From Ariolimax columbianus (Eukaryota > Mollusca > Gastropoda > Stylommatophora > Arionidae), in assembly GCA_036924085.1 (NCBI GenBank), contig JAVGWX010000012.1:34302119-34366118 (forward strand): a stretch of DNA of 64,000 bases, in the 5' to 3' direction. Positions 7,001 through 56,809 of the stretch are shown in pieces. The position numbers were made by a program, and so were the translations under genes. Position 1 is the stretch's first letter. The number at the start of each line of letters is the position of its first letter. The notes below the pieces were generated by a model. The model was not told where the DNA came from and ran no database searches. It was given only the letters and a program-made list of their open reading frames with translations.

Positions 7001-10000
7001 AGATAACTCTTCATGTACTAAGCCACAGCCTATGTAAGGTTGGTGGTAAGTTCCCTTCCTTGCTGTTTTTAACCTTCCAAACTCATACATCAGGTAACCT
7101 GGGTCACCTGGAGGAGCGGTCATACCAGGCATGAACCAAAGCCCAGTATTTTTTTCTGTCGGACTGTGAACTCAAACCTTGACACACTGTAATCCGAGTT
7201 TAGTAAGCCAGCTCACTATCAACCAGGATAAACGCTGCACTTATGTATATATCTGTTTCTAAAGTAACTTACAGTTGCCCATGTTTTTCTATTGTAATTG
7301 TTTATCACGTTTTGCTTCAAGTTCTGGAAAATTGTCATGGGAACCTATGATATGTTAAAACTAGTTTACGGGGACCAGAACAGGAACCATTCAAGTTGTT
7401 ATGAATGGCGTAAGAGATTTAAAGATGATGATTCATGTTTGGGATGACCCATAACATCATCAGACAATGCTCATGTTGCCCAGGTCAATTCCAATAGTCA
7501 TCTGAGAGTTCAAGAAATAGTGGAAGAATGACACAGCTTCATGGTATCATGCCATGACATTCTAATAGAGAAACATCTAGAGGAATTGGCCGGAATTGTT
7601 GAGAAACAAATCATGGTTCCTCAAACATGACTACACAGTCCACACATCACTGTCTGTCTGGCAATGATAAATGTGCTTCCCCAGCCATCCTACTTATTCC
7701 CATACTGAAATCCAGCTTGAAAGGATGATGATTTAAGAATATTTCAGAAATTTAGGGAAATTATAGACTCACCTACGTATGATTCCCAAAAGTGCTTACA
7801 AATGAAGATAGCATATATATATATAAAACGTCTGGTCTGGCAAAACATATTGATTGGACGATATTAGTTAGGGTTACGCGAAATAAACTGACCAAAATCC
7901 TCACCCCACTTCTCCCTTGAAACAGGCTGTTTCGTGACAGTCTGACTAAAGAGGTGGGGGATCTACATGATCCCCATAGTAGTGAATAACACACAGATGA
8001 AGCTAAGCATAGCACACACAACTGCTTGGAAGATCCCGGTTCATCTTCATCTGCCTGCTCAGGATGTGAGGAAAGCTACCACAACCTGTCACTTAACGCC
8101 CTTTCCAGAGTGCACAATAGTGTAAACTTACTGATTGTGGATACTCAATAACAACAGCTTCAATATCAGGAAGTATTTAAATAGTAGGATCAAAGCCAAC
8201 TTTTGTATATGGTGTACATCAGAGTGTACCCAGAAAAAAAGCAATTTATATATTTATAATTTATTGAACATGGCTAGTCAATTTAGGTGTGACCTCTGAA
8301 TGAATAAATACTATTGTTAAATATTGATTATATATTGCTCGTGAAATCATGTGATCTCTCAAATATGAAGCCTGTCAAGCCTTGTCCTTCAAACTTACTT
8401 CAAACAAAAGATTTAAGGCTTGCTCTTCATTCTGAGCCAAGTGGCAGGACAAGCCCTTAACATAGACTCCATCTTGGTTCTCCGTTACCACCATGGGATC
8501 ATGAGTAGGGTGTCGCTCCTTGCTGTTGTTCGTAGATATTTCAGGCAGTGTCCCCAACAAGTCAAACATGCCTTCATTGTAGATTTCCATGTACGACACC
8601 CTGTTCAATTAAAAACATTTTAATCATGAATGACTGTTTATTTATGTGATGCACAGAAATAAATCAAAACCTTTTCAGGTCTCTGTGGAGTACAGGTCTT
8701 CAACAAATACACTCCAAGCTCCTGCCACTCCCCACCCCACCCCGAGCCATCTATCCCAAGCCCTCTTGTCATGAGGCATCTGGTCCAACTCCCTGTGGAG
8801 TACAGGTCTTCAACAAATACACTCCAAGCCCCCCTGCCCTGAATCATCTGTTGCAGCTCTCTCTAATCTTTTCATGTTTCCTTTATATTTGCCTCAAGCT
8901 CCATTTTCCATGTGTGCAATGAGATCTGTATACAGTGAATCTCACTCTGTGCTAGAACGCTTGGAATAAATACTAGAAACGGTCATTTGATGTGATCTGG
9001 TAAAATGTGATCATTTGAATATTTATATTCTTTGTTGTACACTCTTCATTTTAGGAGTCTGATATATGTTGTACTAGGTGATACAAAGGTAAGAGTGGCC
9101 TTCGTCTTGGAACTTTAACATGATAAAAATGCATCCATGCTATAGATCTTCAACTCAAATGTGGTTGCTCCTTCTATATGAGTGGAAACATGGCAGATGA
9201 CCAAGCTCAATATATAGAGATTACAGGGTATTATCAAGAAATCCCTGAGTAAGAGTCTAGACTTGCAGTGATTTGACAGTGTTACAGACAAAGGCTTATG
9301 GGAAAGAACAGGGCAAAGACTGGTGGAACAGGAAGTCTCAGGAAGCAGATGGAACTGGATAGGTTCAAGCGAGTGATTTGCCATGGTCTATGTGCATGAC
9401 AAGGACAAGAATAGCCCCACTGACCCACAGAGAGCATGTCGTAAGAGGTGACTAACTGTGTGACATGGCATAACAGTGGTCATGGTTAGGGGGTTTGTTA
9501 AGAGCAGCATAGATGGCGCCTAATAGGCTGCGGGTTTACTTTGCTCTAGTGTTTGAGTCTATTAAGATGGATTCACACATCAGTTAAACACCCTCCATAG
9601 TGGAATAATAAGTCTAGCCCACTAAGCAGGAAATTCTCCTCCTGTCTACATCGAGCTCACACTAGAGATGGGACCTGCAAACAGGCTTATGCCCATGAGA
9701 AGTACATGTCAACTAAGACTAAGACTGGATAGGTCACACACTGTGAAAATTCGAAGCCAACATAACCAGGCAATCTCTGGAATGGAACCTACCTGCAGGT
9801 AAAAAGAGACAAAGGAAGGCCAAAGAATACACGGAAGAGAGATCTTGAGAGGTTGATACAAGAAAAACAGGTAGAAACTAGAAAGAACTGAACAAAATAG
9901 AACCGGACAGTCTGCTTGAAGAGGGCTGATATATGGTGTATGCACCCCACTAGCTGCAAAGATAAAATTGACAGCTTAGCTACGATATCTGCACCTTACA

Positions 10001-13000
10001 GTCTGGCACATCCACTTTAGACAAGTCATTTTAGCTGGGTAACTCGTCTTAGATTTGTGACTGTTCCCAGTCAACATGCAAGAAAGAATGTGTTTTGAAG
10101 TCAGAGTTTCTTGATTCCTTAATGAAATGGCCTGTGAGCTGCATCTCTCTGTTTTGGTTCTAGAGTACATGAGACTTGCACATTGCCCCTTCTTATGCTA
10201 ATAGGAACAGTTCTGTTGTGAGAAGGCCAGGTGTTTGACTTCTGCTATCAGAGGCCATGTGCTGCTCATACCTTCTTCTTATGTCCTCACTTTCTACTGC
10301 TGGGAATGTGTAGGGCCTTCTGCGCATACTTGCAACTGAGTGTGCAGACAAACACCTGTTGTACTTTCATTCAGGCCACTTCTGGGTAAGAATTTTGTTA
10401 TCCTTAAAATTGTTTGCCTGGACAGTGGACCAACAGAATGCTCTTTTTAATTTTAAACTGCCAAGAACTCTTTTATGTGCACAGCATGCACACAAGACTT
10501 TTGAGTTTTTCATCCATTTCCGATAGAACTAGGTCCCCAATCTCACCTCCATTGAGATCAAGGGATGTTTGAAACCTGAGGGATTCGAATACCCTCTCTT
10601 TTGCACTTTTCTTCATTCATTTTGTGATATACGAGAGCTGAACATCTCAACTACAATGAACACATAAACACACTACTCCTCCCTCCAAAAACAATAGCAT
10701 GCTTAGACGACCAGGACTCCTCACATTGAATAATCAGGTCCATGACCATGTCTGATGCGTCGTCCCAGATGGCCTGCAGTTCTGTTAGGGAGGTGGTGAT
10801 CTGTTTTAGCTAGGTGTTGTGAGGGTAGCTCTGGGGATGTCCCTCGCCCTCCCAGCCAGCCAGAGCATCTTGTGGTTTGGGACTTAATGGTAGAGACAGG
10901 TGATCAATCATAGAGGCAATGTCTGCAAGTTGAATACACTGAGCTACTTCATTGTTGAAAATTAGTTCATACCAGTGGATCATGAGGATGCACCTCTGGT
11001 TGCACAGGTGTAAGGCCTCAAGACACTGTCAGTCCCACTGTAGTAGTGCCCAGGTCTCGGAGCCGTACAGGAGGATTGGGATGCTGCAGGAGGAGTATAT
11101 ACAGCCTACGCTTGGACCAGACTCAGCGAAGTGAGTGCATAGGTGCAGCCGCCAGGCCCATTCCACAGGTGATGTCATGATTGCTGCATGTGCCAGAGAA
11201 CTGCTTACTGCCAAAGTGGATGAAATGATCAGTGGCTGCAATACGGTTGTCATTCACTGTGATGCTCAACGAAGACTGGCCCTTGATAGGATATTAGATT
11301 TTCATCTTCGTCCAGGAGATGTGCAAGCCTAGGTGGGTAGTCTACAGATCTAGTGCCTCAATGGGGCCTACCAGGGCCTGAGAACCATGGTGCCTTATAA
11401 GAATTTAATTAGAAACGATAACTCATCTTCAATTCCACTCCTCGCTATGACAACATTCAGAACAGAAATCTAGATATGCAAAAATATATAAACTGGTCTT
11501 CCATACAGATCAACATTACCTCACTGCGATGCTGTACTCAAGCTTATCTTCAATCTGTTTAAAAAGCTGAGAGATAGCTCTGGGGATAACACCACGATGG
11601 CGATAGCTCTCAGTTGCCCCAGTCATTGTAAATGTTTTCCCAGCTCCTGTTTGTCCATAGCACATCAGAGTTCCTGTAAACATTCATTACTAAATTGATT
11701 CATCTAAACCATCCTAGACCGCACAGGCAGGATGTGATCTGCGGTGACATTTTATATTGCCTGTATCCGATGTAAACAATTTATTTCAAATACTGTGTAC
11801 TGTAATTGTGTGTTGAATTTTTAAAAATATAAATTATTTTGTTATTTAAACAAATTATTATTTGTGTATATTTTCATTATATACGGCCACATAAAAAAAA
11901 AAAAAAATCCTGAGCTGTGCCAAGGTTTTGTACCCATGTCTCCTTGATTAAGAAGCCCATATTTAAACTATTTGACAATATGTTCCTCATATATTTCAAA
12001 TATTGTATAATTGTGTGTAAAATATATGGAAAAATTACTGTTGGTTAGTTTGGTTGGTTAGTTTGGTTGGTTGGTTGAATGGTTGGTGGGTTAGTTATTT
12101 AATTAATTATTTAGTTAGTTTCCTTATGCCATTAAGCATTCTGGGGAGATTAAGTCGTCTGGTATGGGCCAAGTAAGTTGCATCTGACACTGTGAGCCCA
12201 TGATGTTACAAGATCAGTCTAATGTTATTTATCCACCTGCTAGGCAGCCTCCGTTTTGCCCTGTAGTCAGACCTTCTAGCGATATTACTGTTCTACGTGT
12301 ATAAATTTGAAATTAGAAGAAAACAATTAGTTTAATTGTAATTTTGTATATATTTACATACAGTTGATAGGGGTCACTACAGCAGAAAGGAAGACGCTTG
12401 TGTCTCCAGAAATGAATGAATTAAAATGCAAAACTGCGGGTTTTGAATACATGGGGTAAGTTTTTAGCATCCCCTATTCACAAGGGAGGTGAAACCAGTG
12501 TCTAGTCCTATTGGAGATAAACGATAAAACTTGGAGGCCCAGTATAGAAACTGTGCACATAAAAGAACCATTGGCAGTTGAAAATTGATAAGTGTAGGTT
12601 GTTAGCTATTGTCTGGGAAAAGTTCTAAAAGAAATGTAATTCCTAACCAATATGCAATCTACTTTCCCTCAGTATGCAGCAGGAAGTACAAAATTACAAC
12701 AACAAAAATGAACTTACTAGGGATAATCTTCAGCTACCTGGCAGCAGGCATACATATGCCTGATTGACTACCAGGATTCTAAGAATCCCAAGTACAAAGG
12801 ATGGTCATTAAGTAACACAAATTTTATGAATAACTTTTTACAAGAGTACAAACCAGATATTTTTTCTGTCTTATTTTTATATGTGGTCCTTCCTACCTGG
12901 CAACACTCTTGGTCCACCGTTCCACTAGCTTGTGGAAGCCTTCTAAAAAAATGCTTTTGGTGTGGCCTTTAACCAATTTTTCACCGCCTGCATTACCTAG

Positions 13001-26480: not shown

Positions 26481-26724
26481 TCGTTGACTAGAGGTTTTCA
26501 AAGTTTTTTAATCCGCGGCTCCCTTGACCTGTTCATAAATTACCGCGGCTCATCTCTATACTATATATAAGCAATTGTACCCACAATAAATATTAATGAC
26601 TTCTGAATTTGCGTATTTTACACCTGATACCAATTGTGATGGGCAAATAAGTTAAGTTTCGTACACAAAATTTATAAGACTATTTTTAAAATGAAAAACT
26701 AAATTAATTGAATTAACTGACAGT

Positions 26725-28800
26725 TTCATGACACCTTATACTAGTTCCAGTTTGATGGCACCTTATACTAGTCCCAGTTTGATGGCACCTTATACTAGTC
26801 CCAGTTTGATGCCACCTTATACTAGTCACAGTTTGATGACACATTATACTAATCCCAGTTTGATGACACCTTATACTAGCCACAGCTTAATTACACCTTA
26901 TACTAGTCCCAGTTTGATGACACCTCATACTAATCCCAGTTTGATGACACCTTATACTAGTCTCAGTTTGATGACACCTTATACTAGTCACAGTTTGATG
27001 ACACCTTATACTAGTCACAGTTTGATGACACCTTAAACTAGTAACAGTTTGATGACACCTTATACTAGTCCCAGTTTGATCACACCTTATACTAGTCCCA
27101 GTTTGATCACACCTTATACTAGTCCCAATTCTATGACACCTTATAGTAGTCCCAGTTAGATGACACCTTATACTAGTCCCAGTTTGATCAGACCTTATAC
27201 TAGTCCCAATTTGATCACACCTTATACTAGTCCCAGTTTGATCACACCTTATACTAGTCCCAGTTTGATCAGACCTTATACTAGTCCCAATTTGATCACA
27301 CCTTATACTAGTCCCAGTTTGATCACACCTTATACTAGTCACAATTCTATGACACCTTATAGTAGTCCCAGTTAGATGACACCTTATACTAGTCCCAATT
27401 TGATCACACCTTATACTAGTCCCAGTTTGATCACACCTTATACTAGTCACAATTCTATGACACCTTATAGTAGTCCCAGTTAGATGACACCTTATACTAG
27501 TCCCAGTTTGATCACACCTTATACTAGTCCCAGTTTGATCACACCTTATACTAGTCACAATTCTATGACACCTTATAGTAGTCCCAGTTAGATGACACCT
27601 TATACTAGTCCCAATTTGATCACACCTTATACTAGTCCCAGTTTGATCACACCTTATACTAGTCACAATTCTATGACACCTTATAGTAGTCCCAGTTAGA
27701 TGACACCTTATACTAGTCCCAGTTTGATCACACCTTATACTAGTCCCAGTTTGATCACACCTTATACTAGTCACAATTCTATGACACCTTATAGTAGTCC
27801 CAGTTAGATGACACCTTATACTAGTCCCAGTTTGATCACACCTTACACTAGTCCCAGTTTGATCACACCTTATACTAGTCACAATTCTATGACACCTTAT
27901 AGTAGTCCCAGTTAGATGACACCTTATACTAGTCCCAGTTTGATCACACCTTATACTAGTCCCAGTTTGATCACACCTTATACTAGTCACAATTCTATGA
28001 CACCTTATAGTAGTCCCAGTTAGATGACACCTTATACTAGTCCCAATTTGATCACACCTTATACTAGTCCCAGTTTGATCACACCTTATACTAGTCACAA
28101 TTCTATGACACCTTATAGTAGTCCCAGTTAGATGACACCTTATACTAGTCCCAGTTTGATCACACCTTATACTAGTCCCAGTTTGATCACACCTTATACT
28201 AGTCACAATTCTATGATACCTTATAGTAGTCCCAGTTAGATGACACCTTATACTAGTCCCAATTTGATCACACCTTATACTAGTCCCAGTTTGATCACAC
28301 CTTATACTAGTCACAATTCTATGACACCTTATAGTAGTCCCAGTTAGATGACACCTTATACTAGTCCCAATTTGATCACACCTTATACTAGTCCCAGTTT
28401 GATCACACCTTATACTAGTCACAATTCTATGACACCTTATTGTAGTCCCAGTTTGATCACACCTTATATTGGTCCCAGTTTGATCACACCTTATACTAGT
28501 CCCAGTTTGATCACACCTTATATTGGTCCCAGTTTGATCACACCTTATAGTAGTCCCAGTTTGATCACACCTTATACTAGTCACAATTCTATGACACCTT
28601 ATAGTAGTCCCAGTTTGATCACACCTTATATTGGTCCCAGTTTGATCACACCTTATACTAGTCCCAGTTTGATCACACCTTATATTGGTCCCAGTTTGAT
28701 CACACCTTATATTGGTCCCAGTTTGATCACACCTTATATTGGTCCCAGTTTGATCACACCTTATATTGGTCCCAGTTTGATCACACCTTATACTAGTCAC
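26725..28800. repeat. 27-bp satellite array (~77 units) with 108-bp higher-order period
   Basis: The unit is CCTTATACTAGTCCCAGTTT plus GATCACA. From about 27100 on, four unit variants repeat in fixed order (a 108-bp period, about a dozen times): ...CCCAGTTAGATGACA, ...CCCAGTTTGATCACA (twice), ...CACAATTCTATGACA. The minus strand is open for 637 codons (TSIRCDQTG-type nonapeptides), but that frame starts with GTG, not ATG. The plus frame is broken by TAG in each higher-order unit. Confidence 0.95.
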
Positions 28801-29533: not shown

Positions 29534-29545
29534 GTATACTGACTC

Positions 29546-29759
29546 GGATCGCCGCAAGACGAGCTACTGCGAAAGCATTTGTCAAGAATGTTTTCATTAA
29601 TCAAGAACGAAAGTCAGAGGCGCGAAGACGATCAGATTCCGTCGTAGTTCTGACCATAAACGATGCCGACTAGCGATCCGCAGGAGTTGCTTCGATGACT
29701 CTGCGGGCAGCTTCCGGGAAACCAAAGTGTTTGGGTTCCGGGGGAAGTATGGTTGCAAA

Positions 29760-29792
<33 letters not shown>

Positions 29793-29832
29793 TCCAGGAG
29801 TGGAGCCTGCGGCTTAATTTGACTCAACACGG
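29546..29832 (+). rRNA. 18S rRNA fragment (partial, inside a LINE)
   Basis: From GGATCGCCGCAAGACGAGCT to TTTGACTCAACACGG the text follows the eukaryotic small-subunit rRNA core as I know it: GAAAGCATTTGTCAAGAATG, CGTCGTAGTTCTGACCATAA, CAGCTTCCGGGAAACC, GGGGGAAGTATGGTTGCAAA and AAGGAATTGACGGAAGGGCA. It is sense, 287 bp, from the middle-to-3' third of 18S, with a few differences. It is not a functional rRNA gene. It begins exactly at the LINE insertion boundary. Confidence 0.93.
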
Positions 29833-30146
29833 CCAACACTGAAATGACTGACATGCCGAGACCACTTTTCTGGGGTCTAATATGGAACTGGTGCTGGATT
29901 TAGACCCTCAGAAATCTGGGGTTATGCCCCCTGTGGCTCGGTTGGTCTGCATCCAGTGTTTGAAAAAGGAATTGACGGAAGAGCACTATCAGGAGTGGAG
30001 CCTGTGGCTTAATTTGACTCAAGACGCAAACAATGTAGAACGACTGACAAATCGAGAGCACTTTCGTTGGGTCTAATATGGAACGGGTGCTGGAATTAGA
30101 CCCTCGAAAATCTGGGGCTACCCTCTAAGTAACTTGATTGTCTCGC

Positions 30147-30182
<36 letters not shown>

Positions 30183-30480
30183 ACCTGCGGCTTAATTTGA
30201 CTGAACACGCCAATACTGTAGAACGACTGACGAATCGAGAGCACTACCGTTGGGTCTAATAATGAACGTACGCTGGTATTAGACTCACGGAAGACAAGTC
30301 AGCTCTCTAACACTCTAATGAAAGAATGCTACGGAAATCGTGTTTAACCCCGCAGAAACCGCAGATTTCAAATACCTGGTCATTGACAAACAAAAGCCCT
30401 CAATAAATTCGTCTAGCCAAATAGTGAACGGTTGCTGGAAATAGACCATCTGAAGACAGGTCAGTTTTACCCTACTAATG
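29770..30480 (+). repeat. ~185-bp tandem monomers carrying decayed 18S segments
   Basis: AAAGGAATTGACGG starts at 29770, 29965 and 30148 (spacing 195 and 183). Each is followed by CAGGAGTGGA-CCTG-GGCTTA and then GACTGAC-AATCGAGAGCAC and GTCTAATATGGAACGG. The last part resembles the next 18S stretch (GATTGACAGATTGAGAGC). A fourth, partial monomer (GTGAACGGTTGCTGG) is at about 30424. Confidence 0.85.
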
Positions 30481-31400
30481 ACAGGGCGTTGCTACGGAAA
30501 ACCAGCTCATATCGAGAGGAGCCGCAGACACTTTGGTTCACGTATCAGGCCGATAAGCCAATGGCGCGAGGCTACCATGTGGGGGATTACGGCCGAACCC
30601 ATGTAAGCCGCAATCCCGCCCAAAATCTCAGCACCACTGCAATAGGAGGCTCCTACATGTTTGGGACCTGGGGCTCGCGCCCCAGCCCTATCCGGTAGAG
30701 CCGCAGAAAGAGGTCTCTGCCGCCCGCCGATCAAAGCGGGCGGGCAGCTGCCTGATACTCACCTAATACGGCGATGGGGTGCGAAACCACCAACATAAGA
30801 CTTAGTTCCTGGTCGGGGTGTCGAAAACAGTAGAGCAGCCACCTCACTGTGAACTGTCGAGACTCAACCAATGACCATGAGATCTGTCCGCACACTAGGC
30901 GAACAACATCTCTGTGACATTACCAGGCTTGTCCCCTGGTTAAATGCACTTATGCCTCGATACCTACCTCTGTACGCTACCAGCCATATAGCTAGCTTGC
31001 TGGACGCAGAAGAGATGCAGACCAGCGAACATTGCACATCTGCCCCACTGTGTCAACATCCCAGGTGGCGGGGAATGCTAGGCGTACCATCTCTGCATAG
31101 AAGCCAAGAAATTAAAGGGAGAAAGAGATACCCCACTCACATGCAAATGCTACGTTTCTGGCAGGACGTGACGATCCTGGGGTACAGACACACTGGACTG
31201 CCTCTCTTCCGGGTAAACCAGTCCATATCATATATCATCTCACATATTATCATCGCACCCTATAGACACGAGTAGTGAAGACTCGATAGTCTGGTAAGAC
31301 AACTTCCATAAGAGAGACAACTCTGATCATAAACAACTGCTGCCTTGCAGATAGGCTGGGGACAGCCAAAGACTAAGAAGGGCATCCCTACAGAAACGCC
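30480..31400 (+). other. LINE 5' leader with GC-rich hairpins; no ORF1 recognised
   Basis: Inside the LINE insertion. GGGGCTCGCGCCCC (about 30670-30683) and CCGCCCGC...GCGGGCGG (about 30721-30744) can fold as stems. One open frame of 134 codons (30871-31275) shows no coiled coil, RRM or zinc knuckle. I take the stretch as untranslated leader or a collapsed ORF1. Confidence 0.5.
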
Positions 31401-31412
31401 TGTTGAAATCGG

Positions 31413-33101
31413 ATGGACGGGGCCGCAAGCCTAACAAAACAGTTCAACGTAAATCGCAGCATGATGACAGTACAACCGATCATAAAAACGCATGGCGCTC
31501 ATCCTGCGGAGTCCCGCCAGGCAGCGATAGTGCCGGGCCTCACGCCTCGAAGGGGCCCACCCTTGACTACTGGTGGTCACCCACCGATGTGTCGTGGAGT
31601 CAAGGCACATGGCTATGGGGCAACTTTTATTGACCAAAAACTCAAGACCCTCAAAATACTACAGTGGAATGCGGAGGGAGTCATTAACAAAAGACTTTCC
31701 CAAACACATCACCTGCATGAAAGTAAGATTGACGTGGCATGTATCCAGGAAACGCACCTCAACAATAATCATAAATTCCCAATCAGAGGATACCAGACCT
31801 TCCGTCTCGATAGAGAAGGCCACAAATGAGGGGTCCTGATACTGACCAGAAACTGCATACAGAGTAGCGCGGTATCTGTCAGTCACACCGGACAAGCAGA
31901 AATTGTAGGAGTTGACATAATGGTTCAAGAGACGAAGCTCCGCATTTTCAATCTGTACGGACCACCAAATAGAGACCTATCGCTCTCGAGTATGGAGGTC
32001 AGAGACTCCAACTGCATAGTAGTTGGAGATTTCAACAGCTACTCGGAGAGATGGGGATACTCTGACACAGACAGCAGAGGTGACGAAGTGGAAGATTGGG
32101 AGATAGATACAAATCTCTCCCTAATCAATAGGCCGGAGGATAGCCCTAGCTATTCAAGTACATGGCATACCACCTCGACTCCAGATTTGGCCTTCTCCAC
32201 ACAGGACATACACCATAAAATGGGCCGCCAGGTGCTAAACCAACTGGCAGGTAGCGACCACAGGCCGATCAAGCTAGACATCGATATGGAAGTAGGCCCA
32301 CAGGAAACAAAACCGCTCCCACGTTGGAATTACAAACGAGCCGACTGGGACAGATTTGCAATCCTGACAGATGGGCTGTGTGAAACCATCAACACACGAA
32401 ACAAGAAAATGAAGCCCATGGTGGAAAGCCTAAGCAAGGCAATAATGCAAGCCGCCACTGAAACCATCCCAAGAGGAGCTAGGAAAAACTATAAGCCCTA
32501 CTGGAATGATGAGTTGCAGAAAGCGGAAGATGCAGCAACAAATGCTAGGAACATGGCAGAGCGAGAACAATCTATTGAGGCAAACATCGCCCTCAAAGCC
32601 GCCACGGCGAAATACAAATACACTCTCAAGCAAACAGCAAGAGAAAGCTGGAAAACCAAAACGGAAAGCCTAAACCTGGACAAAGATGGGAACAAGCTAT
32701 GGAAGCTAGTCAGAGCCATGAACGACGAAACCCCGTCAAACAAACAAATTACCATCAAGCAGGGCGAAAACTTGCTCACAGGTAAGAAAGCCGAAAATGC
32801 TTTTGTCGATCACTATGCCAGAGCAAACCACATCGAGGTCCCTGCAGATAAGCATACAGACATTAGCGAAGAGCTAAAGGGGCACGACAATATCAATACG
32901 GCACCTGAAGAGCACATGCTGGCCAAATTAACAATGAGCGAAATGGAAGAGGCTATGAGAACATTAAAGAAAAGGAAATCTCCCGGAAAAGACGGGATAG
33001 CAAACGAAATGCTGATGGGGCTGGGCCAAACAGCGAAGAGGAAACTGCTATCTGTCCTGAACCAAAGCTGGAAAAGAACGGAGGGGCAGGAGCATTCCTG
33101 A
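31413..33101 (+). pseudogene. Nimbus/I-like LINE ORF2: endonuclease and linker, one nonsense codon, RT lost
   Basis: A single frame reads through the EEP endonuclease: LQWNAEG, VACIQETHL, VVGDFNSYSERWG and GSDHRPIKLD, giving the N, E, D-x-N and SDH catalytic signatures. A TGA at 31827-31829 breaks it, and the same frame continues on both sides. A charged linker follows (WRNAMAEREQS-like helices; RKSPGKDGIANEML starts the RT fingers). After LLSVLNQSWK the text jumps into RNase H sequence (NGGAGAFLN) in another frame, so RT motifs 1-7 are missing. The frame ends at 33101. Confidence 0.88.
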
Positions 33102-33835
33102 ACCTACCAAATGGAAGACAAATATCACTGTCATTCGCTACTGGTAAGTACACAAGCAATTTCAGAGCGGAGGCAGAGGCACTGAGGGCGGCAGTGGAAG
33201 AAATGGTGACACACAATGAAAATGAAAGCCATATAGTCCTGCTTACAGATGCTCTCGCCGTAGTCACAGCGCTAAAAAGCCAGAAAAACACTGAGCTTAA
33301 TGACTTAAGAGCAGCACTCTGCTAACTGTGCCAGCAGTCCGCACCAAAAAGGGTAGTGGTACAGTGGGTCCCATCACACTGCAACATCCAAGGCAACGAG
33401 GAGGCAGACAGACTGGCAAAAGAAGGTGCAAGACTACCACAAACAGATACCAGTATGACGTACGAAGAGTCAAAACGGCTTATCAAAGCCAGATACATGA
33501 CCAAATGGGAAACCGAACATACTGGTTACACCAAAAACGATGCCTATTACCAGTTGAACCGAAGAGAGCAGGTCGTTGTCTTCAGACTTCGCACTGGCCA
33601 CAATAGACTGAGGTACCACCTATTCAACAAATTGAAGATAGGTGGTACCGACGAATGCCCGTGCGGTACTGGCAAAATGGCCGCTGAACATCTGCTGCAG
33701 AACTGCCCGACATACCAGGATCAGAGAGAGCAGATGTGGCCATCACCAGTGGAACTGCAAGACAAGCTGTATGGCAGTGGCGACAGCCTCAGGATGACCG
33801 CCGCATTTTTCGAAAAAATAATGGTTACTGTCTGA
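33078..33835 (+). pseudogene. Nimbus/I-like LINE ORF2: RNase H and C-terminal zinc motif
   Basis: Parallel to 56025-56785. From the junction at about 33078 it holds the RNase H C-terminal part (FRAEAEALRAAVEEM, LLTDAL, VQWVPSHCNIQGNEEADRLA) and the end region FRLRTGHNRLRYHLFNKLKI with CPCGTGK-8 residues-C. The first RNase H aspartate (TDG) is deleted. A TAA at 33322-33324 replaces a lysine codon seen in the sister copy. The final stop is TGA at 33833-33835, then the GAA-rich tail. Confidence 0.88.
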
Positions 33836-33873
33836 CTGCGTACGAAGAAGAAGAAAGAAGAAGTATACTGACT

Positions 33874-33910
33874 CTGTGGAGTCTTCTAAACCAGTATAAA
33901 GTTTCAGTTA
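33874..33910 (+). repeat. CR1/L2-group tail, right half after LINE insertion
   Basis: CTGTGGAGTCTTCTAAACCA and GTATAAAG complete the tail whose left half ends at 29544. Confidence 0.9.
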
Positions 33911-38556: not shown

Positions 38557-41432
38557 CATACATTACACACATTACACCAATCCCATCTACTACACACATT
38601 ACACATATTACACTAATTACATCTACTACACACATGACACATATTACACCAATCCCATCTACTACATACATTACACCTATTACACCAATTACATCTACTA
38701 CACACATTACACATATTACACCAATCCCATCTACTACACGCATTACATATATTATACACATTACACATATTACACACATTACACATATTACACACATTAC
38801 ACCTATTACACACATTACACATATAATACATATTACACATACCATACTTATTACACACATTACACCTACTACACCTATTACACATATCAACATATCATAC
38901 ATATTACCCACATTACACCTATTACATACATTACATCAATTACATATATCATACACATTACACCTATTACACACATTATACCTATTTCACATATCATACA
39001 TATTACACCTATTATACATATCATACTTCTTACACACATTACACCTACTACACACATTACACCTACTACACACATTACACCTATTACATACATTACACCT
39101 ATTACATATATCATACATATTACACCTATTACACACACTACACCTATTACACACATAATACTTATTACACACTACACCTACTACACACATTACACCTATT
39201 ACACACATTACACATATTACACCTATTACACACTACACCTATTACACACATAATACGTATTACACACTACACCTACTACACACATTACACACTACACCTA
39301 CTACACACATTACACCTATTACACACATTACACATATTACACATATAAACATATTATACATATTACACACATTACACCTATTACACATATCATACACATT
39401 ACACATATCACAAACAATGCACCTATGACCCACTTTCCTATTACACACATTACACTTATTTCACACATTATCATTATTACACATTATATATATATATATT
39501 ACACCCACTACACATATAACATACATTCCTATTACACACATTACATTTATTACAAACATGGGTACCCGTATTACACACATTACACCTATTATACTCATTA
39601 CACACATTACATCTATTACACACTGTGCACATATTAAACACATTGCACACATTACTCATATTACACACATTAAACACATTACACATATTACACATATCAT
39701 ACACATTACACACATTTCATATATTACACACTGTGCATATTGTACACACATTGCACACATTACACTTAATTACACACATTAAACATATTACACATATTAC
39801 GCACATTACACATATCATACATATTACACACATTACACATATCATACATATTACACACATTACATCTATTACACGCATTACCTCTATTACACTTATTACA
39901 CCTTTTACACACATTACACCAATTACACATTACACATATTACACACATTGCACATATTACACACATTACACATATTACTGTGATTACACATATCACATCT
40001 ATTACACCAATCCCACCTATTACACCAATCACACACATTCACCCATCACACACATTCACCCATCACACACATTCACCCATCACACACATTCACCCATCAC
40101 ACATATCCCAACTATTACACCCATCACACACATTCACCCATCACACATTTCCCAACTATTACACCCATCACACACATTCACCCATCACACACATTCACCC
40201 ATCACACACATTCACCCATCACACACATTCACCCATCACACACATTCACCCATCACACACATTCACCCATCACACACATTCACCCATCACACATATCCCA
40301 ACTATTACACCCATCACACACATTCACCCATAACACACATTCACCCATCACACACATTCACCCATCACACCTATCCCAACTATTACACCCATCACACACA
40401 TTCACCCATCACACACATTCACCCATCACACACATTCACCCATCACACCTATCCCAACTATTACACCCATCACACACATTCACCCATCACACACATTCAC
40501 CCATCACACACATTCACCCATCACACACATTCACCCATCACACATATCCCAACTATTACACCCATCACACACATTCACCCATCACACACATTCACCCATC
40601 ACACACATTCACCCATCACACACATTCACCCATCACACCTATCCCAACTATTACACCCATCACACACATTCACCCATCACACACATTCACCCATCACACA
40701 CATTCACCCATCACACACATTCACCCATCACACCTATCCCAACTATTACACCCATCACACACATTCACCCATCACACACATTCACCCATCACACACATTC
40801 ACCCATCACACCTATCCCAACTATTACACCCATCACACACATTCACCCATCACACACATTCACCCATCACACCTATCCCAACTATTACACCCATCACACA
40901 CATTCACCCATCACACACATTCACCCATCACACACATTCACCCATCACACACATTCACCCATCACACCTATCCCAACTATTACACCCATCACACACATTC
41001 ACCCATCACACACATTCACCCATCACACACATTCACCCATCACACCTATCCCAACTATTACACCCATCACACACATTCACCCATCACACACATTCACCCA
41101 TCACACACATTCACCCATCACACACATTCACCCATCACACACATTCACCCATCACACACATTCACCCATCACACCTATCCCAACTATTACACCCATCACA
41201 CACATTCACCCATCACACACATTCACCCATCACACACATTCACCCATCACACACATTCACCCATCACACACATTCACCCATCACACACATTCACCCATCA
41301 CACCCATCACACACATTCACCCATCACACACATTCACCCATCACACACATTCACCCATCACACACATTCACCCATCACACACATTCACCCATCACACCTA
41401 TCCCAACTATTACACCCATCAAATATATTACA
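38557..41432. repeat. Large minisatellite: TTACACA-type units grading into a 17-bp unit with higher-order structure
   Basis: The left part (38557-40020) is a loose mix of ATTACACA/ATTACACCT 9-12 bp units. From about 40030 a clean 17-bp unit (CATTCACCCATCACACA) repeats, with CCTATCCCAACTATTACACC blocks inserted every 3-7 units. The plus strand is open for 604 codons (39625-41439), and other frames are long too. The peptide is pure T/H/I/P/S repeat, so I read it as a satellite artefact. Confidence 0.95.
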
Positions 41433-41619
41433 TACATGACACATATCTTGCATATATATTGTGCAAGGTGCTAGTACCCTCATTATTGAACACTTTTGCC
41501 AAGTGTTCACTTAATTTATTTTAAGTGCCTATATTTCATACCTTATCAGTATTCGATAACAAGTCAAGAAATGTTTGCATTTATTGCTTACACCTGTAGT
41601 TTCTCGAAACAAGCCAGGC

Positions 41620-42064
41620 CAAAAGAAGGTGCAAGACTACCATAAACAGATACTAGTATGACGTACGAAGAGTCAAAACGGCTTATCAAAGCCAGATACA
41701 TGACCAAATGGGAAACCGAACATACTGGTTACACCAAAAACGATGCCTATTACCAGTTGAACCGAAGAGAGCAGGTCGTTGTCTTCAGACTTCGCACTGG
41801 CCACAATAGACTGAGGTACCACCTATTCAACAAATTGAAGATAGGTGGTACCGACGAATGCCCGTGCGGTACTGGTAAAATGGCCGCTGAACATCTGCTG
41901 CAGAACTGCCCGACATACGAGGATCAGAGAGAGCAGATGTGGCCATCACCAGTGGAACTGCAAGACAAGCTGTATGGCAGTGGCGACAGCCTCAGGATGA
42001 CCGCCGCTTTTTTCGAAAAAATAATGGTTACTGTCTGACTGCGTACGAAGAAGAAGAAGAAGAA
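41620..42064 (+). mobile_element. Nimbus/I-like LINE, short 5'-truncated insertion with TSD
   Basis: GAAACAAGCCAGGC flanks it at 41606-41619 and 42065-42078. The insert carries only the last ~125 codons of ORF2 (TYEESKRLIKARYM, FRLRTGHNRLRYHLFNKLKI, CPCGTGKMAAEHLLQNC) open to its TGA, then (GAA)n. It is nearly identical to the matching parts at 33.4-33.8 and 56.4-56.8 kb, so it is young. Confidence 0.93.
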
Positions 42065-42310
42065 GAAACAAGCCAGGCAACTTAATACTTGTTTTGTGTA
42101 AAGTTTGATTGCAGTTTTGAATGTCTGTGATTTACGATTTAGAAATCGAGATAACTGAACGGTGATGAGAGTTATTCCGTGTTCGTTCCCCGTGCAATTA
42201 TGCGACAGTTTGAAGATTATACGTTACTTGGTTTGAATGCATGGCGTAATTAAAAGCGCATGGTAAGGTTACATTGAAGACACGCTGCTAGTGGGTTGTT
42301 CAGTTTCTGT

Positions 42311-46604: not shown

Positions 46605-46695
46605 AGGTTAGGGTTAGGGTTAGGGTTTGGGTTAGGGTTAGGGTTAGGTTTAGGGTTACGGTTAGGGTTTGGGTTAGGGTTAGGGTTAGGGTTAT
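46605..46695 (+). repeat. Interstitial telomeric repeat, (TTAGGG)n
   Basis: About 15 units of GGTTAG/GGTTTG with few variants (TTTGGG, TTACGG). TTAGGG is the telomere repeat of most metazoans. The right edge touches the broken 3' side of a reversed LINE fragment. Confidence 0.95.
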
Positions 46696-46697
46696 GG

Positions 46698-47530
46698 TAT
46701 TTGATGGTGTTTCGTCATTCATGGCTCTGGCTAACTTCCATAGTTTGTTCCCTTCTTTATCTAAATTGAGGCTTTCTGTTTTATTTTTCCAGCTGTCTCT
46801 TGTTATTTGGTTTAGTGTTCTTTTGTATTTCGCCGTGATAGACTTGAGGGCGATATTTGCCTCCATAGATTGTTCTCTCTCTGCCATGTTCCTTGCATTT
46901 GAGACTTCGTCTTCCGCTTTCTGCAATTCATCATTCCAATATGGCTTGTAGTTTTTCCTTGCCCCTCTTGGGATGGTTTCGGTGGCTGCTTGCATTATTG
47001 CTTTGCTTAGGCTTTCCACCATAGGTTTCATATTGTTATTCCGTGTGTTGATGGTTTCACATAGCCGATCTGTCAGAATTGCAAATCTGTCCCAGTCTGC
47101 TCGTTTATAGTTCCAACGTGGGAGAGCTTTTGTTTCCTGTGGGCCTACTTCCATATCAATTTCTGGAGTAGAGGTGGTATGCCATGTTCTAGAATAGAAG
47201 ATAGGGCTGTCCTCCGGCCTATTGAAAAGATAGAGATTTGTGTCTATCTCCCAGTCTTCCACTTCATCACCTCTGTTGTCTGTGTCCGAATATCCCCCAT
47301 CTCTCTGAGTGGCTGTTGAAGTCTCCAACTACTAGGCAGCTGGAGTCCTTGATTTCCATACTCGAGAGCGACATGTCTTTGTTGGGTGGGCCATACAGAT
47401 CTTCGTTTCTTGTGTCATTATTTCGAGTCCTACAATTTCTGCTTGTCCAGTGTGATTGACAGCTACCGCGCTACTCGGTATGCATTTACATGTCAGTATC
47501 AGAACCCTTCCTTTGTCAAGACTGTAACAT
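46698..47530 (-). pseudogene. Nimbus/I-like LINE ORF2 fragment, truncated at both ends
   Basis: The minus strand from 47530 reads VLILTCKCIPSSAVAVNHTG (endonuclease), then after breaks GYSDTDNRGDEVEDWEIDTN, ALPRWNYKRADWDRFAILTD, ARKNYKPYWNDELQKAED and WKLARAMNDETPSN. Compared with 31.8-32.75 kb it lacks about 33 residues including GSDHRP, so the endonuclease is dead. It stops at the telomeric repeat. It is more diverged than the other nimbus copies. Confidence 0.88.
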
Positions 47531-52379: not shown

Positions 52380-52555
52380 GAATACCAGTACAAAAGAAAG
52401 AAAAAGATAGAACAGATCCAAATTGATACAGGCCTATCAGTCTACTGAGCTGTGTAGGTAAACTGATGGAGCGTATGATAAACATCAGACTGATGTGGCA
52501 CCTGGAAGAAAAACACATATTAATTCCACAGAAAGCAGGATTTAGACAACACAGA
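52380..52555 (+). pseudogene. Older nimbus/I-like RT fragment
   Basis: ATACCAGTACAAAAGAAAG, GGCCTATCAGTCTACTGAGC and GAAAGCAGGATTTAGACAAC match the start of the RT in the copy at 54.57-54.75 kb but with more changes. It abuts a younger copy of the same segment at 52556. Confidence 0.85.
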
Positions 52556-53553
52556 TAAAACAGATCCAAATGGATACAGGCCCATAAGCCTACTGAGCTG
52601 TGTCGGCAAGCTGATGGAACGGATGATAAACACCAGACTGATGTGGCATCTGGAAGAAAAACGAATACTAATTCCACAGCAAGCCGGCTTTAGACAGCCC
52701 AGATCCACTGAGGACCAGGTCATCCTCATAGCCCAGGAGATAGAAGATGCCTACCAGGCACAGAAACACACAGTAGCTGTTTGGGTGGATCTGGAAAAGG
52801 CATTTGACAAAGTCTGGAAGGATGGACTTAGAGTCAAGCTAAGAAGAAGTGATGTCTGTGGGAAGATGTACAAGTGGATCAACCACTACCTCAAACAAAG
52901 AACGGCCAGAGTCCAAGTACAAGGGCAGATGAGCAAAAAGGTGACACTCGAACAGGGAGTACCCCAAGGGGGAGTTTTGTCACCCACACTCTTCCTGGTA
53001 TATATAAACGATATTACAGAGAATATACCAAGAAGAGTCCATAGCTCAATGTTTGCAGACGATCTGGCTATGTGGACCTCTGAAAAGAATCTCACCATAG
53101 CAAGAAATCGGATGCAGACGGCCCTAACATCGCTGGAAAAGTGGGCGAACTCATGGCTGGTCAAAATAAACGAGGAGAAAACCACGTGCACAATATTCTC
53201 GCTCTCATTAAAACCCCAAAGTACCAATTAAGTCTAAATGGCAAAATCCTGCAGCCAAACGACAACCCAACCTATCTGGGAGTCACATTTGATCGGCGCA
53301 TGACATGGAAAAGTCAGATCGAGAGAAACCGAATGAAAGCCAGAGAAAGAATGGCAATCATGAGGAAACTTGCTGGCACAAGCTGGGGAGCAGACGAAGG
53401 CATACTAAAGAAACTGTACACTGGAAGAGTGAGACCAGTTCTCGAGTATGGCATTGCGGCATGGACAACAGCAGCGAAGGCGAACTTCGATAAAGTTAAC
53501 AAACTTCAAAACCAAGCCATGAGAATTATAACAGGTGGCATGAAGTCAACGCC
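52556..53553 (+). pseudogene. Nimbus/I-like RT fragment, truncated on both sides
   Basis: Nearly identical to 54604-55606. It holds the RT from YRPISLLSCVGKLMERM through LEKAFDKVW, GVPQGGVLSPTLFLVYIND and FADDLAMW to NQAMRIITGGMKSTP. One small deletion near 53229 shifts the frame (QSTN stop). It ends abruptly where the 55-bp satellite resumes. Loss of the 3' end is not expected from target-primed reverse transcription, so this is a rearranged or duplicated piece. Confidence 0.9.
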
Positions 53554-54543
53554 AACATGTGGATAGCAAGATACTGTGTAGAAGATTAAAGCTTGGTGTC
53601 AGTCTGTTAATATGTTGATAGTGAGAAACTATGTAGGACATTAAAGCTCTGCTTTAGACTGCTAACAAGCTTGCGGTTGGTGTGCTAACATGTGAATAGT
53701 AAAATATCATGTAGAAGATTAAATATTGGTGTCAACCTGCTAATATGTTGATATTGAGATACTATGTAGGACACCAAAGCTTGGCGTTAGACTGCTAACA
53801 AGCTTGCGGTTGGTGTGCTAACATGTGAATAGTAAAATATCATGTAGAAGATTAAAGCTTGGTGTCAATATGCTAATATGTTGATAGTGAGATACTATGT
53901 AGGACATCAAAGCTCTGCATTAGACTGCTAACAAGCTTGCTGTTGGTGTTATAACATGTGAATTATAAAATATCATGTAGAAGATTAAAACTTGGTGTCA
54001 ATCTGCTAATATGTTGATAGTGAGATACTATGTAGGACATAAAAGCTGAGTGTTTGTCTACTAACATGTGGATAGTAAGATATTTTCAAGACAGTTAATC
54101 TCCAAGTTGGTTTGCATCTGTTGATTTGTAAATAGTAAGACCTTATGTAAGAGATTAAAGCTCAGTATCTGACTCCTAACATGTGGATAGTAAGATAGTA
54201 AGTACACCATTCAATCTTAATGTCTATCTGTTAATATGTAGATAAAGAGATAATATGTAGGACATTAAAACTCCATTTTAGTCCTCTAGCGTGCACAAAT
54301 TCTTTATTTCTCTTTGCGTTTAGGATCCTTAGGTCATGTTATATCTGCAAGCCAGTAATCATGATGCAGTCCATAATCTTCACCAGGACATAGTGGCAGC
54401 ACCATAGCTTTTTCCTCAGCTCTGCATCCTTTGGTATCTCATTTCACTAAAACAAGGTGAAAGTAAAATGCTATGTAGAACACACATTTTGGTGTTGGTC
54501 TGTTAATTTATGGATTGTAGGTACTACGTAAGACTGTAAAATT
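53554..54543. repeat. Degenerate 55-bp satellite, left block
   Basis: Consensus by eye: ACATGTGGATAGTAAGATAC, TATGTAGGACATTAAAGCTC, AGTGTTGGTCTGTTA (55 bp). Units here carry many substitutions and small indels, and some share a longer AAGCTTGCGGTTGGTGTGCT variant. Confidence 0.9.
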
Positions 54544-54555
54544 ACATGGCGGTCT

Positions 54556-56809
54556 CCAGGCATGGAAAGATGCAATACTGGTACCAGTACCAAAAACAGG
54601 GAAGGACAAAACAGATCCAAATGGATACAGGCCCATAAGCCTACTGAGCTGTGTTGGCAAGCTGATGGAACGGATGATAAACACCAGACTGATGTGGCAT
54701 CTGGAAGAAAAACGAATACTAATTCCACAGCAAGCCGGCTTTAGACAGCACAGATCCACTGAGGACCAGGTCATCCTCATAGCCCAGGAGATAGAAGATG
54801 CCTACCAGGCACAGAAACACACAGTAGCTGTTTGGGTGGATCTGGAAAAGGCATTTGACAAAGTCTGGAAGGATGGACTTAGAGTCAAGCTAAGAAGAAG
54901 TGATGTCTGTGGGAAGATGTACAAGTGGATCAACCACTACCTCAAACAAAGAACGGCCAGAGTCCAAATACAAGGGCAGATGAGCAAAAAGGTGACACTC
55001 GAGCAGGGAGTACCCCAAGGGGGAGTATTGTCACCCACACTCTTCCTGGTATATATAAACGATATTACAGAGAATATACCAAGAAGAGTCCATAGCTCAA
55101 TGTTTGCAGACGATCTGGCTATGTGGACCTCTGAAAAGAATCTCACCATAGCAAGAAATCGGATGCAGACGGCCCTAACATCGCTGGAAGAGTGGGCAAA
55201 CTCATGGCTGGTCAAAATAAACGAGGAGAAAACCACGTGCACAATATTCTCGCTCTCATTAAAACCCCAAAGTACCAAGTTAAGTCTGAATGGCAAAATC
55301 CTGCAGCCAAACGACAACCCAACCTATCTGGGAGTCACATTTGATCGGCGCATGACGTGGAAAAGTCAGATTGAGAGAAACCGAATGAAAGCCAGAGAAA
55401 GAATGGCGATCATGAGAAAACTTGCTGGCACAAGCTGGGGAGCAGACGAAGGCATACTAAAGAAACTGTACACTGGAAGAGTGAGACCAGTTCTCGAGTA
55501 TGGCATCGCGGCATGGACAACCGCAGCGAAGGCGAACTTCGATAAAGTTAACAAACTTCAAAACCAAGCCATGAGAATTATAACAGGTGGCATGAAGTCA
55601 ACGCCAATTGTAGAACTCGAAAAGATTACAAAATTGCAATCCATGACCGATAGAAGAGACTGCAGAGCCCAGCTGCAGTCAGAGAAACTCCGAAGACTGA
55701 CGGACCATCCAATGTACCAGAGACTAAACAATTTGGGAAATGGGAAACTAAAGCGGAGAAACTTTGCAGAAATAGCCAAAGCAAAGATGCACGAAGATCC
55801 CATAAACGCACTAAAAACACCAAAACCCATCACTACTGTACGAAAACCTACTTGGCGGCAGGATATATTTCCAGAGGTGGTAGAAAATATACCAGATATT
55901 GCAAACAAAAACTGCCAGAGTGAAAAAGAAAGGAGAGACACTACCCTAAGCTTCATAACGAAAAGCTACCCAAGCATGGACTGGACCCATGCATACACCG
56001 ACGGTTCTGTAACAAACACTACACAGAACGGAGGGGCAGGAGCATTCCTGAACCTACCAAATGGCAGAAAAATAACACTGTCATTCGCTACTGGTAAGTA
56101 CACAAGCAATTTCAGAGCGGAGGCAGAGGCACTGAGGGCGGCAGTGGAAGAAATGGTAACACACAGTGAAAATAAGAGCCATATAGTCCTGCTGACAGAT
56201 GCTCTCGAAGTAGTCACAGCGCTAAAAAGCCAGAAAAACACTGAGCTTAATGACTTAAGAGCAGCACTCTGCAAACTGTGCCAGCAGTCCGCACCAAAAA
56301 GGGTAGTGGTACAGTGGGTTCCGTCACACTGCAACATCCAAGGCAACGAGGAGGCAGACAGACTGGCAAAAGAAGGTGCAAGGCTACCACAAACAGATAC
56401 CAATATGACGTACGAAGAGTCAAAACGGCTTATCAAAGCCAGATACATGGCCAAATGGGAAACCGAACATACTGGTTACACCAAAAACGATGCCTATTAC
56501 CAGTTGAACCGAAGAGAGCAGGTCGTTGTCTTCAGACTTCGCACTGGCCACAACAGACTGAGGTACAACCTATTCAACAAATTGAAGATAGGGTGTACCG
56601 ACGAATGCCCGTGCGGTACTGGTAAAATGACCACTGAACATCTGCTGCAGAACTGCCCGACATACGAGGATCAGAGAGAGCAGATGTGGCCATTGCCAGT
56701 GGAACTGCAAGACAAGCTCTATGGTAGTGGCGAGAGTCTCAGGATGACCGCCGCTTTTTTCGAGAAAATAATGGTTACTGTCTGAATGTGTACGCAGAAG
56801 AAGAAGAAG
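54556..56809 (+). mobile_element. Nimbus/I-like LINE, 5'-truncated, uninterrupted, 12-bp TSD
   Basis: ACATGGCGGTCT flanks it at 54544-54555 and 56810-56821. It is inserted within the 55-bp satellite. The insert runs from inside RT motif 0 to a GAAGAAGAAGAAG tail, and its coding frame has no break, which suggests a recent event. Confidence 0.95.
54665..56785 (+). CDS. LINE ORF2 fragment: reverse transcriptase, RNase H and C-terminal zinc motif (nimbus/I superfamily)
   Basis: A 706-codon frame from the first ATG; it is also open upstream to the insertion edge (QAWKDAILVPVPK, YRPISLLS), so the ATG is internal to the original protein. RT motifs: AGFRQHRSTEDQ, WVDLEKAFDKVW, QGVPQGGVLSPTLFLVYIND and catalytic FADD (residues 147-150, bases 55103-55114). 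RNase H: TDGS (Asp446), FRAEAEAL, LLTDALEV, WVPSHCNIQGNEEADRLA, giving the D-E-D-D set. It ends with RLRTGHNRLRYNLFNKLKIG and CPCG-7-H-4-C. RT plus RNase H in one ORF2 is the mark of the I superfamily. Nothing suggests host function; the 5' truncation removes promoter, ORF1 and endonuclease. Confidence 0.92.
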   Translation: MERMINTRLMWHLEEKRILIPQQAGFRQHRSTEDQVILIAQEIEDAYQAQKHTVAVWVDLEKAFDKVWKDGLRVKLRRSDVCGKMYKWINHYLKQRTARVQIQGQMSKKVTLEQGVPQGGVLSPTLFLVYINDITENIPRRVHSSMFADDLAMWTSEKNLTIARNRMQTALTSLEEWANSWLVKINEEKTTCTIFSLSLKPQSTKLSLNGKILQPNDNPTYLGVTFDRRMTWKSQIERNRMKARERMAIMRKLAGTSWGADEGILKKLYTGRVRPVLEYGIAAWTTAAKANFDKVNKLQNQAMRIITGGMKSTPIVELEKITKLQSMTDRRDCRAQLQSEKLRRLTDHPMYQRLNNLGNGKLKRRNFAEIAKAKMHEDPINALKTPKPITTVRKPTWRQDIFPEVVENIPDIANKNCQSEKERRDTTLSFITKSYPSMDWTHAYTDGSVTNTTQNGGAGAFLNLPNGRKITLSFATGKYTSNFRAEAEALRAAVEEMVTHSENKSHIVLLTDALEVVTALKSQKNTELNDLRAALCKLCQQSAPKRVVVQWVPSHCNIQGNEEADRLAKEGARLPQTDTNMTYEESKRLIKARYMAKWETEHTGYTKNDAYYQLNRREQVVVFRLRTGHNRLRYNLFNKLKIGCTDECPCGTGKMTTEHLLQNCPTYEDQREQMWPLPVELQDKLYGSGESLRMTAAFFEKIMVTV

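Follow-up and report, generated by a model that had tools for sequence, protein, structure and literature searches.

The 64,000-nucleotide (nt) stretch of the Ariolimax columbianus assembly analysed in this study (hereafter the window; contig JAVGWX010000012.1, positions 34,302,119 to 34,366,118 of the forward strand) contains an insertion of a long interspersed nuclear element (LINE) that opens with 18S ribosomal RNA (rRNA) sequence. A perfect 12-bp target-site duplication, GTATACTGACTC, is present at 29534-29545 and 33863-33874 with 12 of 12 bases identical, and the approximately 4.3 kb between its two copies start with 18S rRNA and end in a GAA tail. The 18S sequence begins at the base right after the 5' duplication copy; aligned to the assembly's own ribosomal DNA (rDNA), 29546-29832 corresponds to 18S nt 954-1240 with 285 of 287 bases identical (2 differences), and BLAST against host rDNA gave 98.97% over 290 nt. 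Rfam detected small-subunit (SSU) rRNA at this piece (139 bits, E 9e-38) and large-subunit (LSU) rRNA at 30483-30885 (75 bits, E 1e-15), while a repeat analysis placed two further 63-nt 18S pieces, 29964-30026 and 30147-30209, within a tandem array. Comparison with another copy of the element, L031, revealed that the window copy is without approximately 1.48 kb near 33072-33076, including much of the reverse transcriptase (RT), and it therefore cannot be active. An earlier sequence-only reading of the window had described the perfect duplication around a joined 18S and LINE, the 287 bp of sense 18S starting directly after it and a nimbus/I-like second open reading frame (ORF2), all of which were recovered here; its span for the insertion (29534..33873) also stood, apart from an end coordinate one base short of the 3' duplication, which runs to 33874. 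The two 63-nt 18S pieces, the 28S 3' piece and the internal deletion are additions to that reading. The features of the insertion, all on the forward (+) strand, are as follows.

29534..29545, +, target-site duplication, 5' copy, GTATACTGACTC
29546..29832, +, 18S rRNA nt 954-1240, the 5'-truncated rest of the family's spacer and 18S leader; 285/287 against host rDNA
end of 29546..29832, +, family junction closing the 18S piece, ...CAACACGG followed by CCAACAC; 5,768 times genome-wide
29833..29963, +, tail of leader repeat 1 (no assigned origin)
29964..30026, +, 18S-derived 63-nt segment, repeat 2; 92% to host 18S over 62 nt
30147..30209, +, 18S-derived 63-nt segment, repeat 3; 97% to host 18S
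30483..30885, +, decayed 28S rRNA 3' end in the leader; Rfam LSU model 3005-3399, the same model range as in L031 and L032
30886..31412, +, remaining leader, with a small ORF (30871-31275) that has no Pfam match
31413..33101, +, ORF2 remains: endonuclease region, broken frame (ORFs 31413-31829 and 31920-33101), most of the RT deleted
33072..33835, +, ORF2 3' part: RNase H and C-terminal region, overlapping the preceding part at the deletion boundary
33844..33862, +, (GAA)n tail
33863..33874, +, target-site duplication, 3' copy

In the window, ORF2 matches Exo_endo_phos_2 above the Pfam cut-off and RNase H below it (23.1 bits vs 25.8); in L031, Exo_endo_phos, RVT_1 and RNase_H all exceed their cut-offs. 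By domain order, the coding part (endonuclease, RT, RNase H; EN-RT-RNase H) is predicted to be I/Nimb-like, and Nimbus itself has a domain order of the same kind. The 131-134-aa ORFs ahead of ORF2, which were checked for an ORF1 zinc knuckle, have no Pfam match, the copies being damaged. Among the 120 RT relatives listed of 1,110, those named by organism are gastropod proteins (Nucella, Pomacea, Batillaria, Littorina, Elysia) that carry no family name. Three more stretches of the same LINE lie in the window (41620-42067, 52383-53555 and 54556-56810), each 5'-truncated or broken and 86-98% identical to L031.

A search of the window's own assembly (2.29 Gb) with 29546-31400 as the query gave 6,729 first-look candidates, of which 40 were scored, the window included. 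The leader was present at all 40 scored places and aligned from the first base in 31 of them, whereas two aligned only from query base 272, retaining the last 16 nt of the 18S alone; identity to the window query was 93-97% in the other 39 places. Additionally, a 30-mer across the boundary between 18S and leader (at most one mismatch) was counted 5,768 times genome-wide, against 0 for the reversed control. This junction is therefore not private to one insertion and the 18S belongs to the element, so that a family-owned rRNA leader is well supported, and chance or a chimeric assembly is excluded by the same counts. The sequence-only reading had offered two origins for the 18S piece. The one in which the family carries 18S as its own 5' region is supported by the recurrent junction, by the leader at every scored place and by spacer alleles that travel with the LINE body; the other, an RT jump from LINE RNA to 18S rRNA, fails for the window copy's 18S but probably gave rise to the leader and can be observed elsewhere in the family. 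A one-off event or an assembly chimera, both of which that reading had named as possible outcomes, is refuted.

The LINE moved by target-primed reverse transcription, displaying 12-bp duplications, 5' truncations at many points and GAA tails; the duplications are 12/12 bases in all four copies read at both ends. Insertion was not at a fixed rDNA site: the upstream flanks of the first 20 starts listed on contig C1 are unrelated in 20 of 20 cases, and the sequence downstream of the LINE, read at four ends, contains no rDNA.

Upstream of the position equivalent to 29546, the 18S runs on in other copies, and four longer copies (L031-L034) have one common 5' end. With contig C222 as the host rDNA reference (18S, 1,738 bits), L031 and L032 are collinear with reference positions 9856-11730 at 97.7-97.9%, a span that covers 18S nt 1-1240 and, ahead of it, 635 nt of 5' external transcribed spacer, and in L031 a 12-bp duplication adjoins the 5' end of the spacer. 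The longer copies begin at a single base, rDNA +1, directly after TGTATATT; in the rDNA, this first base of the element is preceded by ...CCCGGAATGTATATT. Read from 5' to 3', the full leader consists of rDNA +1, 635 nt of spacer, 18S nt 1-1240, a tandem array with two seemingly older 18S fragments, a decayed 28S 3' end and then the LINE. It thus exceeds the extent given in the sequence-only reading by the spacer from +1, the 18S from nt 1, the 18S repeats and the 28S remnant. One further copy, L004, displays another internal 18S deletion or switch, its 18S leaping from about nt 37 to nt 1019.

The element's terminal 21-mer occurs 3,243 times genome-wide, and a string of promoter plus start 125 times (at most two mismatches). 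Among 100 listed places of the latter, 98 are in small contigs, mostly approximately 12.3 kb apart, and two are on chromosome-size contigs (C10 and C12). These two chromosomal places with the promoter before the spacer are C10:58993495 and C12:62836862 (L043); at L043 the promoter is followed in turn by spacer, 18S, a core piece of 28S and the LINE leader. Of 71 element starts on C1 (those listed first, up to 50.68 Mb, with exact junction matches only), 41 have the exact family junction no more than 2.3 kb downstream, mostly at approximately 1.85 kb. The shared 5' ends of the copies and a TATA-like neighbour suggest that the rDNA +1 base is the RNA polymerase I (Pol I) start of the pre-rRNA.

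Within the leader, the age of the rRNA seems to rise from the 5' end inward. The outermost spacer and 18S are near the host sequence (mean 18S difference of 0.88% over 15 copies), and behind this outer 18S are two older 18S fragments and the decayed 28S 3' end. Identity to host 18S is 84-98% for the inner 18S repeats of the copies inspected, compared with 99% for the outer 18S, and the 28S 3' piece reaches 75-81 bits in the window, L031 and L032, as judged against the Rfam model rather than host 28S. Leaders of other types comprise a nearly full 18S (L040), 18S with the first internal spacer (L047), 5.8S (L035-L038) and a 28S core piece (L042-L045); the 5.8S search and the 28S search both led to dispersed, rearranged leaders at the four loci looked at per search. 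Additionally, a second junction, from 18S nt 1645 into an 18S repeat, was found 97 times genome-wide (at most two mismatches).

Joins between 18S and LINE sequence were surveyed with a 69-nt 18S query located beyond the family junction; 40 of 285 candidates were listed and 37 were read (L039-L041, L080-L099, L132-L145), with breaks upstream of the query, which ends 2 nt before nt 1396, being invisible. The 18S stops at nt 1396 in 20 of the 37 sites (1396 or 1397 in L041, L083 and L142, where the next base is G). The join partners of 18 of these 20 map to the element by short-sequence match at no fewer than 8 different positions, including starts at +1 (6 sites), 1665, 1853, 1857 (3 sites), about 2012, 2370, 2790, 2945 and 2946; those of L136 and L140 have a match near 2057 that begins beyond a short gap, that of L081 matches weakly and that of L083 has no match. 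Of the other 17 sites, 8 break at nt 1637-1645 and one, L139, at nt 1395, while the remainder either extend further or end near nt 1410-1423. The join of nt 1396 to +1 was counted 17 times genome-wide (at most two mismatches), and L041 reads as an 18S fragment followed by spacer and 18S and then the LINE leader. In L084 and L095, both ends of which were read, a single 12/12-base duplication encloses the 18S piece together with the LINE. An acceptor that stays fixed while the donor points vary agrees with jumping onto an 18S fragment or a favoured site, whereas one shared edge at this frequency does not fit deletions from a single ancestor. Template switching, recurring in the family, is the likely origin of the leader.

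Four complementary DNA (cDNA) or switch ends (L091, L093, L095 and L138) were also observed at the same 18S base, ATTTGACTC, 18S nt 1225. An RT stop at the hypermodified base of 18S helix 31 was considered as the cause of these ends and rejected; by its numbering, this base would lie on the wrong side.

The relation between leader and body was examined in 15 distinct window-like copies, picked by similarity to the window leader (L003 and L031, L009 and L034, L012 and L032, and L021 and L033 being the same loci), and in 28 sampled rDNA array units, 21 to 27 of which were readable per site. In the window's subfamily the leader is inherited with the body: the spacer alleles of the window-like copies were found in none of the readable array units, and a window-type spacer 20-mer is present in 11 of the 15 copies, whereas 100 listed starts comprise 5 of window type, 40 of rDNA type and 55 that are neither exactly. 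Genome-wide, the two 20-mers were counted 349 and 1,865 times, respectively, the latter including the rDNA arrays. From this distribution, spacer type goes with body type. Five copies with the 1396-to-+1 join (L041, L084, L088, L089 and L090) have the rDNA-type spacer at the covered sites; this was set aside as proof of switching onto pre-rRNA, because the 15 window-like copies with which they contrast were chosen by likeness to the window and the rDNA type is the commoner one.

Divergence is unevenly distributed along the element. The LINE body has 22 near-fixed differences in 578 columns between five rDNA-type and the 15 window-like copies, compared with 8 in 635 nt of spacer (7 substitutions, one of them readable in only 4 copies, and 1 deletion) and 0 in 1,240 nt of 18S between the window-like copies and the rDNA units. 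In 17 distinct copies, 46 informative sites were found, 0 of them in the 18S, and sites differing in at least three of the 15 copies number 11 in the spacer and 0 in the 18S. The 18S difference from copy to copy (1.59%) is approximately twice that from copy to host (0.88%), which describes a star around the host sequence. Joint unconstrained descent would give equal densities; since they are unequal, either the rRNA part is younger than the body, having been renewed later than the split of the bodies, or the 18S is constrained. The low spacer divergence favours renewal over constraint, making renewal of the spacer and 18S after divergence of the subfamily bodies plausible. Among the five rDNA-type bodies, four are separated by only 3-5 of about 573 sites and are a recent burst; the fifth, L149, has 23-24 differences, yet the same spacer type.

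Combined, these results are explained with good confidence by a LINE family with a host-rRNA leader that probably arose by template switch and whose spacer and 18S may later have been renewed, the window copy being a 5'-truncated, internally deleted member. The reverse transcriptase of the LINE would leave the LINE RNA for rRNA or pre-rRNA and copy it to its 5' end, and the resulting fusions would then amplify as families. The 18S fragments of the leader would offer homology to pre-rRNA, through which the spacer and 18S part may have been renewed once the subfamily bodies had diverged. More tentatively, and with the balance tilted slightly against it, the lineage may live by such renewal, with 18S fragments guiding the RT onto pre-rRNA, which is copied to the Pol I start, and with transcripts that begin at the base of the rRNA precursor, perhaps via an internal promoter or rDNA-borne source copies. 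Several observations weigh against the explanation by switching and renewal. For 30 of the 71 starts listed on C1, the 2.3-kb span contains no exact junction, and the reading of +1 as a transcription start draws on where the copies begin and on the TATA-like sequence beside it. The densities for body and spacer come from unlike comparisons, the former between LINE copies and the latter between LINE and rDNA, and the two spacer types may reflect two rDNA variants, one of them outside the 28 sampled units, instead of renewal in place. Linkage of spacer and body within the window's subfamily is weak (mean r2 of 0.106 vs 0.069 shuffled; 17 of 300 shuffles reached at least that value), a pattern compatible with mixing although short of significance, and fresh capture at every insertion may apply to the rDNA-type majority. 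Purifying selection on the 18S would likewise leave no fixed 18S change.

Such selection, for example on a promoter, a translation aid or a nucleolar address, would keep the 18S host-identical in place of renewal from pre-rRNA, and it accounts for an 18S that lacks any substitution common to three or more of the 15 copies and any of the 46 informative sites found elsewhere. However, divergence is below that of the body in the spacer as well (8/635 vs 22/578 near-fixed differences), a region for which no cause of constraint is known, and no stretch of the 18S departs from the pattern, variable regions included; we regard selection as unlikely, although it is the strongest competitor. Somewhat less probable still is read-through, in which a LINE inserted into an rDNA unit was transcribed together with it by way of the rDNA promoter and spread as a chimeric transcript from +1, internal deletions then shaping the leader. 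The 5' end at rDNA +1 agrees with this, as do the two chromosomal places that retain promoter and start, one of which (L043) continues through spacer, 18S and a 28S piece into the LINE leader. One captured transcript would nevertheless carry evenly aged rRNA, and here the 28S piece (75-81 bits), inner 18S (84-98%) and outer 18S (99%) differ, an argument limited by the 28S decay having been judged against the Rfam model only; the recurrent joins at many positions would in any case require template switching.

That the window's own 18S was acquired in a one-off RT jump from LINE RNA to 18S rRNA at the end of synthesis is extremely improbable. Such joins do exist in the family, at 18S nt 1396, and the window's 18S is host-identical at 285 of 287 bases, but the recurrence of its junction and the extension of the leader upstream in longer copies refute this origin for the window copy. 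Equally little credence is given to insertion of the LINE into 18S genes at a fixed site, which is the targeting known from R7/R8-like elements, as the source of the upstream 18S. The one common 18S breakpoint of many alternative copies, nt 1396, is in its favour; against it, 18S is missing from the sequence beyond the four LINE 3' ends that were read, the duplications of L084 and L095 enclose the 18S, and the 40 listed loci of the 18S query are spread over chromosome-size contigs.

A search of the open-licence literature, with subscription papers and repeat databases outside it, turned up no account of a LINE family whose leader is rRNA, in keeping with the impression of the sequence-only reading that none had been described. 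The family resembles R2 and R1 in tying a LINE to rRNA transcription, and template jumping has been described for both; unlike R2/R1, its insertions are dispersed, its coding part is EN-RT-RNase H and the rRNA is inside the element rather than its target. A ribozyme of the R2-type 5' self-cleaving kind, in contrast to R2, was not found by Rfam at the gathering threshold in the window, L031 or L032. Short interspersed nuclear elements (SINEs) are short and non-coding, whereas the leader described here precedes a LINE that codes for its own enzymes. As in the SINEs derived from 5S and 28S rRNA that are named in PMC13174262, rRNA sequence forms part of a mobile family. The same report (Law & Burns 2026, PMC13174262) describes insertions in which LINE-1 is chimeric with U6, 5S, 28S or other RNAs, for which template switching or RNA ligation was proposed; the 28S rRNA/LINE-1 chimeras comprise 18 loci, mostly sense, with a recurrent rRNA start. 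The present family shares with them the joining of an RNA to the 5' side of a LINE within one insertion and a recurrent rRNA point, but differs in that the rRNA fusion became a family leader, present in thousands of copies, and takes in the spacer of the pre-rRNA from +1 onward. Nimbus (BgI) of Biomphalaria (PMC11203168) is likewise a gastropod LINE of the I superfamily; the available part of its description, with which the comparison was made rather than with its sequence, does not mention an rRNA leader. The tripartite chimeric pseudogene of Magnaporthe (PMC2104539) displays double template jumps in LINE reverse transcription, comparable to L041, but is not the leader of a LINE family.

These findings bear on how LINEs come by new 5' untranslated regions (UTRs) in the absence of intermediates; Law & Burns (PMC13174262) speculated that RNA fusions swap the 5' UTRs of LINEs. 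A single genome here appears to hold several stages, from scattered single fusions through a small fused family (97 copies) to a very large one, with rRNA layers of differing age, and the family shows how self-copying elements can replace the part preceding their genes. The 5' ends of the copies pinpoint a putative Pol I start at single-base resolution, which raises the question of how a LINE is transcribed that begins at +1 but lacks the rDNA promoter. Additionally, dispersed 18S encountered in such genomes during barcoding or rDNA counts may be LINE sequence.

Three repeat arrays were also noted in the window. A large 27/108-bp minisatellite is located just upstream of the insertion (26721-28798, 77 copies of the 27-mer), and a C-rich ACATTACAC/CACCCATC minisatellite extends over 38560-41446 with a GC skew of -0.6 to -0.7. 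An interstitial GGTTAG array of 15.5 copies occupies 46606-46698 and resembles the telomere repeat.

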